Origin: Prevotella sp.
GTDB lineage: Bacteria > Bacteroidota > Bacteroidia > Bacteroidales > Bacteroidaceae
DNA length: 40,719 bases
Assembly (NCBI GenBank): GCA_017428055.1
Contig: JAFRRN010000052.1
Location: 1-40,719 of the forward strand
Reading direction: 5' to 3'
A model generated the notes under the pieces. That model searched no databases. It worked only from the letters and a program-made list of their open reading frames with translations, and had not been told where the DNA came from. How positions within the stretch are numbered: the stretch's first letter is position 1; each line of letters starts with the position of its first letter. Made by a program: the position numbers and the translations under genes. Shown here piece after piece: positions 23,237 to 23,417 of this stretch.

Positions 23237-23417
23237 GCACTTACCTAAGGGGTGAGCGTAGGAAATCTGGAACCCCCGTCTAACTATAAGAATGCTACCA
23301 CGCCAAAGCGTGGAGCAAAGCTGTATGCGTTAGACAGAGGATGCCAAACCTTGGCTTCCCCTCGTTATTAAATCGAACTATTCCAGAATAAGTTTCCTAC
23401 GCTTCTTCGGTAAGTGC
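23237..23417 (-). ncRNA. Structured leader element upstream of the BspA-like gene
   Basis: Six nested, perfectly complementary helices can be drawn: P1 9 bp (23237-23245/23409-23417), P2 10 bp (23256-23265/23393-23402), P3 7 bp (23266-23272/23381-23387), P4 7 bp (23278-23284/23329-23335), P5 6 bp with a CAAA/TTTG loop (23298-23303/23308-23313), and P6 4+5 bp (23337-23340/23360-23363 and 23343-23347/23351-23355). The shape is a long rod ending in a junction with two arms. A minus-strand promoter at 23472-23503 would place it in the 5' leader of the BspA-like gene, hence the strand given; the helices would also form on plus. I cannot assign it to a known RNA class. A riboswitch-like leader, a processed small RNA or a foldable mobile repeat remain possible. 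Confidence 0.6.

Follow-up and report, generated by a model that had tools for sequence, protein, structure and literature searches.

A structured leader RNA ahead of a surface-protein gene in Prevotella: a large, apparently uncatalogued family with a candidate long-range termination switch

The window analysed here is a stretch of 40,719 nucleotides from Prevotella sp. (assembly GCA_017428055.1, contig JAFRRN010000052.1). On its minus strand, a long leader precedes a gene that the sequence-only reading had called BspA-like. That reading had proposed that positions 23237-23417 of the leader form six helices and represent a candidate new regulatory RNA of a switching type. The locus therefore raises the question of whether such an RNA exists as a conserved unit, how far it extends, and how it acts on the gene behind it. 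The fold and the cis position of the leader are well supported, and the leader is very probably a cis-acting structured RNA. It is best read as an attenuator-type switching leader that acts in cis and belongs to a new class.

The 181-nt core (minus strand, 23237-23417) has a predicted folding energy of -79.4 kcal/mol, compared with -47.35 +/- 4.3 kcal/mol in 200 shuffled sequences, none of which is equally stable (z = -7.45), and a 270-nt version of the element gives z = -6.16. All six minus-strand helices are present. The proposed boundaries describe only part of the element, since the conserved unit runs from ~23467 to ~23212, so that a 5' hairpin, a leader strand that pairs and a 3' tail also belong to it. 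The proposed promoter at 23472-23503 is also found. It is of the Bacteroidota type (minus strand, 23503-23472, TTTG-N20-TATATTTG), and together with the start codon at 23113 (minus strand) it defines a leader of ~350 nt. In 3/363 control windows, a TAnnTTTG box occurs in the range where the copies carry theirs. The product of the downstream gene is a BspA relative, for which DUF285/LRR "PARCEL repeat" surface protein is the more fitting description.

Pairings in the conserved unit were assessed by folding, by RNAalifold and, because P4 and P5 align poorly, by an alignment-light swap test. In this test, the duplex energy of cognate strands is compared with that of strands exchanged between species, using 2000 permutations and reversed-strand controls. 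The rows comprise 47 type A copies and 48 copies that belong to type B or to more distant relatives (B+), uncorrected for phylogeny. Four rows of the 99-row alignment A3 were removed: L043:3459 (internally deleted), L167 and L171 (decayed or weak, misaligned) and L201 (the same as L200). The parts of the element and the gene that follows are:

23500..23503, minus strand: -33 promoter element TTTG, assigned from sequence only, 20 nt from the -7 box
23472..23479, minus strand: -7 promoter box TATATTTG, consensus TAnnTTTG, at a fixed offset in 46/47 A copies, that of the window among them, and 32/48 B+ copies
23441..23467, minus strand: 5' hairpin H1, right after the presumed transcription start; RNAalifold pairs with both-side changes
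23427..23435, minus strand: leader strand part 1, pairing with J5/6 (PKc); swap test
23417..23427, minus strand: leader strand part 2, pairing with the segment after P3 (PKa); swap test
23409..23417 / 23237..23245, minus strand: P1, 9 bp; fold; both-side changes in 2/9 pairs (three sequences each)
23393..23403 / 23255..23265, minus strand: P2, 11 bp; both-side change in 5-17 sequences for 7/10 RNAalifold pairs
23381..23387 / 23266..23272, minus strand: P3, 7 bp; fold, RNAalifold
23365..23375, minus strand: PKa partner segment, after P3; swap test
23337..23363, minus strand: P4, variable hairpin; fold; sequences vary
23329..23336 / 23277..23284, minus strand: P5, 8 bp including one U-G; swap test
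23315..23322, minus strand: J5/6, partner of the leader strand (PKc); swap test
23293..23319, minus strand: P6 hairpin (5' arm 23308-23313); fold; covaries in B+
23286..23304, minus strand: inner strand, made up of the P6 3' arm and J6/5, which can pair with the tail instead; swap test
23273..23276, minus strand: PKb G-run; compensatory changes
23249..23252, minus strand: PKb C-run; compensatory changes
23220..23236, minus strand: 3' tail, pairing with the inner strand; swap test
23214..23234, minus strand: T hairpin, formed locally by the tail in competition with the inner-tail helix, with the U-rich run buried in it; changes that keep pairs are mostly G-U, with one both-side change
23212..23219, minus strand: U-rich run after the inner-tail helix; U counts
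20954..23113, minus strand: downstream gene, 719-aa DUF285/LRR (BspA-like, PARCEL repeat) surface protein; domain matches

Compensatory change is seen in P2, in P5 and in three pseudoknots, including that between the G-run and the C-run. RNAalifold on 36 sequences predicts 54 pairs, 18 of them with both-side changes, mostly in P2 and H1, with some in P1 and P3 and one in T; H1 is not evident by eye in some members from other families. The P5 strands pair at -17.11 kcal/mol when cognate and at -8.96 when non-cognate in type A, and at -16.66 and -7.95 in B+ (0/2000 in each group). The reversed control for P5 is also 0/2000, with differences of only 1.45 (A) and 1.59 (B+) against 8.16 and 8.71 for the true strands. 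Both groups give 0/2000 for PKc, where the reversed controls stand at 755 and 676, and for PKa, where they stand at 160 and 1097. PKa is weak in type A (-8.39 against -7.57 swapped, reversed control -8.0), and in the window copy the best duplex lies in a different register. An alternative pairing of the G-run with the CCCC stretch had been suggested from the window sequence; it is present as PKb (23273-23276 with 23249-23252), and its two strands change together in relatives. Among 95 rows, GGGG/CCCC occurs in 65, GGGG/CCUC in nine, GAGG/CCUC in eight and AAGG/CCUU in one, and the remaining 12 are imperfect or misaligned, one of these being fully paired. The eight GAGG/CCUC rows are related and so do not amount to eight events.

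The inner strand has two conserved, overlapping partners, the 5' arm of P6 and the 3' tail. P6 covaries in B+ only (0/2000); in type A, where it hardly varies, the swap test is not significant (365/2000). The tail pairing is conserved in A, in B+ and in the compact relatives described below. Cognate inner and tail strands reach -23.93 kcal/mol against -23.00 swapped in type A (mean 16.3 pairs) and -20.47 against -17.27 in B+ (0/2000 in both). The reversed controls give 114 and 906 in A and a weakly positive 1 and 3 of 2000 in B+, with differences of at most 0.63. Paired changes between the two strands include GGCGUAG/CUGCGCC, AGUGUGGGC/GUUCACACU, GGCAUGAU/AUCAUGCC and GGCGUGAAC/GUUCGCGCC. Covariation among homologues, which had been set beforehand as a test of the candidate, was found, and transcription is predicted to start upstream of the element, where the promoter lies. 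An unsystematic look at the element revealed no resemblance to a transposon end. The proposal of a new switching-type RNA is borne out by this covariation, by the two separately conserved partners of the inner strand, by a fixed orientation to genes and by the lack of an Rfam match.

The family is large and apparently uncatalogued, and its members precede genes for surface proteins and DNA defence in bacteria of the gut and rumen. The source genome holds four diverged type A copies, the other three being 74-83% identical to that of the window (150 candidates scored), and blastn finds matches in 36/150 same-genus genomes, its own included. A covariance model, R1, was built from 36 full copies, and its tallies include the source genome. 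R1 matches 164/398 same-genus genomes (E<=0.01), 74/301 genomes and 17/30 genera at the family level, and 17/247 genomes at the order level (E<=1e-3). Among 247 genomes at the phylum level, it matches the source genome and gives three partial matches (E 6e-4 to 9e-4), one of which, L153, is a compact copy. Copy numbers per genome are lower bounds since only the best 4-7 candidates per genome were scored, and the sequences used to build the models (36 for R1, 48 for the type B model R2, 16 for the compact model R3) match by construction. The exact core pattern occurs in 44 stretches from records of uncultured Prevotella, Prevotellaceae, Bacteroidaceae, Bacteroidales or bacteria; by eye, those naming a host or organ refer to a ruminant or a rumen sample.

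In viral contigs, neither the exact core pattern nor the type B pattern has a match, while the type B start-codon repeat occurs in seven stretches, of which L316 matches the RNA marginally (E 0.0019). A phage or plasmid origin found no match and was rejected; one contig from a viral collection has a copy. This IMG/VR contig (L314:256-525, R2 E 2.9e-36) hints at carriage by a mobile element or at a mis-binned piece of chromosome. At L043:3459-3621, a copy without its inner part (model positions 2-121 and 246-278 kept) lies near a full copy at 476-770 and could represent a natural deletion that sheds light on function.

The position of the RNA relative to genes was examined by taking the largest ORF of at least 100 codons within 700 nt as the downstream gene, for 94 A/B+ placements (window excluded) and 63 compact ones. 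Where such a gene is present, it is on the same strand in 92/93 A/B+ and 53/55 compact placements, and the upstream gene has a mixed orientation (46/28 and 33/15, respectively). The distance from the model end to the gene is at most 90 nt in 38/47 A and at most 100 nt in 45/46 B+ copies, and compact copies are often farther away.

Type A mostly heads genes for secreted proteins, and type B mostly type II restriction-modification operons. By a simple rule, 32/47 proteins downstream of type A look secreted, compared with 20/87 large upstream ORFs; the targets include LRR proteins, a CsgG-family protein and DndC, as well as proteins that look lipoprotein-like by eye. A recurrent type A target, seen in L037, L055, L051 and L063, consists of look-alike genes with a second small gene after the RNA; that of L037 belongs to the CsgG family by Pfam, and the others are look-alikes by their similar N-termini. 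Among 46 B+ copies with a downstream ORF, 27 precede an EcoRI-type methylase (by motif), 11 a secreted-looking protein and eight other genes. In both operons tested, L075 and L214, the methylase is followed by a GmrSD_N/HNH nuclease (PADLOC: REase_II). Starting instead from loci of Pfam PF13651 in the family, the RNA lies just upstream in 17 of the 30 returned, and R2 finds 18 strong and two marginal matches at 47 methylase loci, although 11 of these 18 had gone into the model itself. The source genome has eight EcoRI-type methylase matches, some partial (contigs C36, C8, C35, C84, C9, C20, C71 and C29), and no RNA was found at the six loci examined, those of C84 and C9 being excluded as they lie at contig starts. 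Searches across this whole genome likewise recover only the four type A copies. Proteins of ~770 aa headed by type B RNA in L199, L183, L186 and L191 are candidate defence genes; those of L199 and L186 have no Pfam match, and that of L199 also has no PADLOC or NCBIfam match.

Weak R1 matches in other families led to a compact form of ~175 nt with the same order of parts as the long form. Model R3, built from 16 compact sequences, finds 79/198 order genomes and 34/277 phylum genomes at E<=1e-3, the genomes that supplied R3 being counted. Seven of these 34 lie outside the class (E 1e-11 to 1e-4), and four order genomes have at least 14 matches each. In the source genome, R3 matches 12 places at E<=1e-3 and 14 at E<=0.1, none of which coincides with any of the four type A copies; one of these places, C101:8680-8849, is a weak fifth R1 match (E 0.037). 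The window copy is not detected by R3 at E<=1e-4. Since R3 misses the long copies, the two forms are joined by the weak R1 matches, the order of parts and the pairings, and not by mutual detection.

At 61/63 compact places, the inner-tail pairing reaches -17.14 kcal/mol against -14.72 swapped (0/2000; reversed control 28, borderline) and the leader pairing -13.29 against -9.78 (0/2000; reversed control 1868). The compact tail reads CCACGC in 15/16 sequences. RNAalifold also pairs the leader AAAGCGU with the tail ACGCUUU, a pairing that is uninformative because it is nearly invariant; if real, it would mean that four strands exchange as a set. A -7-type box lies within 120 nt upstream of 37/63 compact copies, at scattered offsets.

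No known RNA family tested fits the leader. In Rfam 15, the window copy reaches the gathering threshold of no family, and at E<=10 the only match in the local stretch is a chance one to the opposite strand, with E 6.9 and 10.7 bits where the cut-off is 34. Fourteen loci of distant and compact relatives yield only three adjoining DUF805 RNAs and a tRNA, 20 loci with compact copies only one tRNA, and six compact loci at E<=1 one chance match away from the element. The DUF805 RNA (RF03081, clan CL00115; cis-regulatory in Rfam) shares leaders with compact copies in L168 and L169, but it has a separate covariance model and no match in the window. In these two leaders it lies directly downstream of the compact RNA (L168:2280-2345, L169:2471-2539), so that each holds two structured RNAs; L168 has a second DUF805 RNA at 3244-3312. 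Bacteroidales-1 (RF01693) is a Bacteroidales RNA motif and 6S RNA has a rod-like part, and both were rejected as identities for the leader, the window stretch having no match to either even at E<=10. The earlier suggestion that a 6S-like RNA is conceivable also finds no support in the multiple copies, the fixed place before genes and the pseudoknotted, multi-branched fold.

The Flavo-1 motif, reportedly described by Weinberg in 2010, is likewise a widespread structured motif of Bacteroidota. According to PMC9723704, it is widespread in Flavobacteriaceae and lies sense or antisense to transcripts, whereas the gene orientation of the leader family is fixed and no Flavo-1 match occurs in 20 compact loci (gathering threshold) or in six (E<=1). 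The AbiF/RCd22 RNA is likewise a structured RNA upstream of an anti-phage gene (abiF); as presented in PMC12373285, it is a repeated-hairpin antitoxin that binds protein, whereas the leader family heads unrelated proteins. Searches of the open-licence PMC literature, with passages of PMC8040213, PMC2864571, PMC9723704, PMC7366714 and PMC12373285, turned up no description of the leader RNA, and supplementary candidate lists may hold members. PMC8040213 gives 16,482 putative models before further filtering, with two Prevotella-only candidates near uvrC, and PMC9723704 gives 64 structured leaders.

The RNA resembles riboswitches and intrinsic attenuators in its position as a leader, in its compact domain with pseudoknots, in having a strand that can choose between two partners and in the U-rich run before the gene. 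It differs from them in having no Rfam aptamer match or known ligand, in a long-range helix that crosses the core, and in targets that are surface-protein and defence genes rather than members of one pathway. By analogy, it would behave as an attenuator or riboswitch leader, and its identity as a riboswitch is putative. Attenuation by a leader peptide was rejected, as the short AUG-CAU-UAG that some type A copies contain is, by eye, not retained by others.

A long-range termination switch is the best explanation of the leader and one that we consider somewhat probable. Some bases of the inner-tail pairing also belong to P6, and the pairing crosses P1-P3; on geometric grounds the rod should be unable to hold P6 and the inner-tail helix together. 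A promoter of its own would drive the RNA along with the following gene, and the RNA would adopt two exclusive states. In the first, the compact P1-P2-P3-P4-P5-P6 domain and its pseudoknots would keep the inner strand in P6, the tail would fold on itself (T hairpin) where able, burying the U-rich run, and the polymerase would read into the gene. In the second, the tail would pair with J6/5 and displace the 5' arm of P6, giving a helix of ~16 bp with the U-rich run at its end; the 5' leader strand would pair with J5/6, the 5' flank of P6, and transcription would stop before the gene. The choice between the states may be set by a cellular signal (a metabolite, a protein or the state of the transcription machinery). 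We infer the mutual exclusion of the pairings in the cell, control of termination rather than of translation, the direction of the switch and its signal.

The assignment of the inner-tail helix and U-run to a long-range terminator, and of P6 (with T) to the open state, is based on the position of the U-run and on the folding of the tail. The 8 nt after the inner-tail helix contain on average 5.13 U in A and 5.98 in B+, compared with 2.26 across the elements, and 6.75 in 16 compact sequences. Taken alone, the first 34 nt of the tail (T hairpin) fold with a mean of -12.8 kcal/mol in A and -10.0 in B+. The compact tail barely folds alone, with a mean of -1.7 kcal/mol against -9.1 (A) and -6.5 (B+) over the same 34-nt stretch. 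With pseudoknots omitted, forcing the inner-tail helix costs 19-25 kcal/mol (from -103.7 to -85.0 in A, from -104.5 to -83.2 in B+ and from -112.9 to -88.1 in the window copy), so the second state could be reached only with the help of a factor, by kinetic trapping or through a pseudoknotted fold. Also against a terminator, it is unusual for the helix to enclose ~47 nt (34-53), type A copies have an imperfect U-run (AUUCUUUG), and a terminator scan, which covers local hairpins only, finds none at the tail site.

A distinctly less probable reading is that the structured leader acts on translation or mRNA stability, being protein-binding or riboswitch-like, and does not control termination. Inverted repeats of the GATTGATAG...CTATCAAT type lie just before the start codon in 31/48 B+ copies, and such a hairpin would fit translational control. 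As PMC6847099 describes, Bacteroidetes lack Shine-Dalgarno sites and mRNA structure tunes initiation. The repeat is found in 0/47 type A copies, however, and A, B+ and the 16 compact members alike have the U-rich run after the inner-tail helix. L183, L199, L205 and L214 are among the B+ carriers of a GATTGATAGT...ACTATCAATC-type repeat before the start codon, which may be a translational hairpin or an operator.

It is improbable that the leader is a processive antitermination element that loads onto the polymerase so that later terminators in accessory operons are passed. The put and EAR/LoaP elements, which we take to be functional analogues in this case, would be matched by the varied accessory genes downstream, the own promoter and the compact pseudoknotted fold. 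By eye, however, many targets appear to be single genes or short sets and not long operons, and an antitermination element has no need for a network of exclusive pairings with its own U-run. It is quite unlikely that the leader is an independent small RNA (6S-like or acting in trans) and stands before genes by chance. The promoter box, the hairpin end and the rod-like core would suit such an RNA, but the same-strand downstream genes (92/93 and 53/55, close by in most A and B+ copies), the multiple copies and the missing 6S match do not. Moreover, a second promoter box between -30 and +60 nt of the model end is absent in 44/47 A and 48/48 B+ copies, leaving a further box before the gene in only 3/47 and 0/48.

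A mobile element or MITE, whose palindromic DNA would mimic an RNA fold, is very unlikely. The sharp edges and many copies recall one, as do the AAAGCGT/ACGCTTT ends of compact copies, many of which score on both strands, but the edges coincide with the promoter and the tail, the orientation to the downstream gene is fixed, and compensatory changes occur. In addition, copies within the source genome (74-83%) are about as similar as near full-length matches between genomes (~72-81%). Least credible of all is that the RNA serves a nuclease system as a guide or omega RNA, an idea raised because type B precedes HNH-nuclease restriction-modification operons (EcoRI-type methylase, then a GmrSD_N/HNH gene, in both operons tested): type A and compact relatives head unrelated genes, no HEARO match occurs in the window or in the relatives scanned, among them the type B+ restriction-modification loci L159, L160 and L163, and the source genome has four type A copies but none found at its methylase genes.

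The termination switch may be extended, tentatively and with considerable doubt, to a phylum-wide class. Four strands (5' leader, P6 5' flank, P6 3' strand and 3' tail) would exchange partners together and thereby open or close a long-range terminator, and surface-protein and restriction-modification genes would come under one shared signal, perhaps the state of the envelope or phage attack, from at least 12 copies in some genomes. If this is right, a dominant gut and rumen phylum carries a large unnamed class of regulatory RNA linking surface-protein and DNA-defence genes, with a structured leader ahead of whole restriction-modification operons. It would also offer a testable handle on regulation in the Bacteroidota, a phylum without Shine-Dalgarno sites. 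Few long leaders there contain a recognised riboswitch, ~2% in B. thetaiotaomicron according to PMC7366714.

Two further features of the window lie on the divergent side of the element. Upstream of its promoter, in the divergent intergenic region, 23594-23662 holds three near-repeats of ~25 nt with small palindromes (GTCCAAG...CTTTGGAC) at a spacing of 22 nt. Beyond the FAA-hydrolase gene (23768-24385), the plus strand carries at 24489-28052 a gene for a 1187-aa Peptidase_C25 (gingipain-type) protein.
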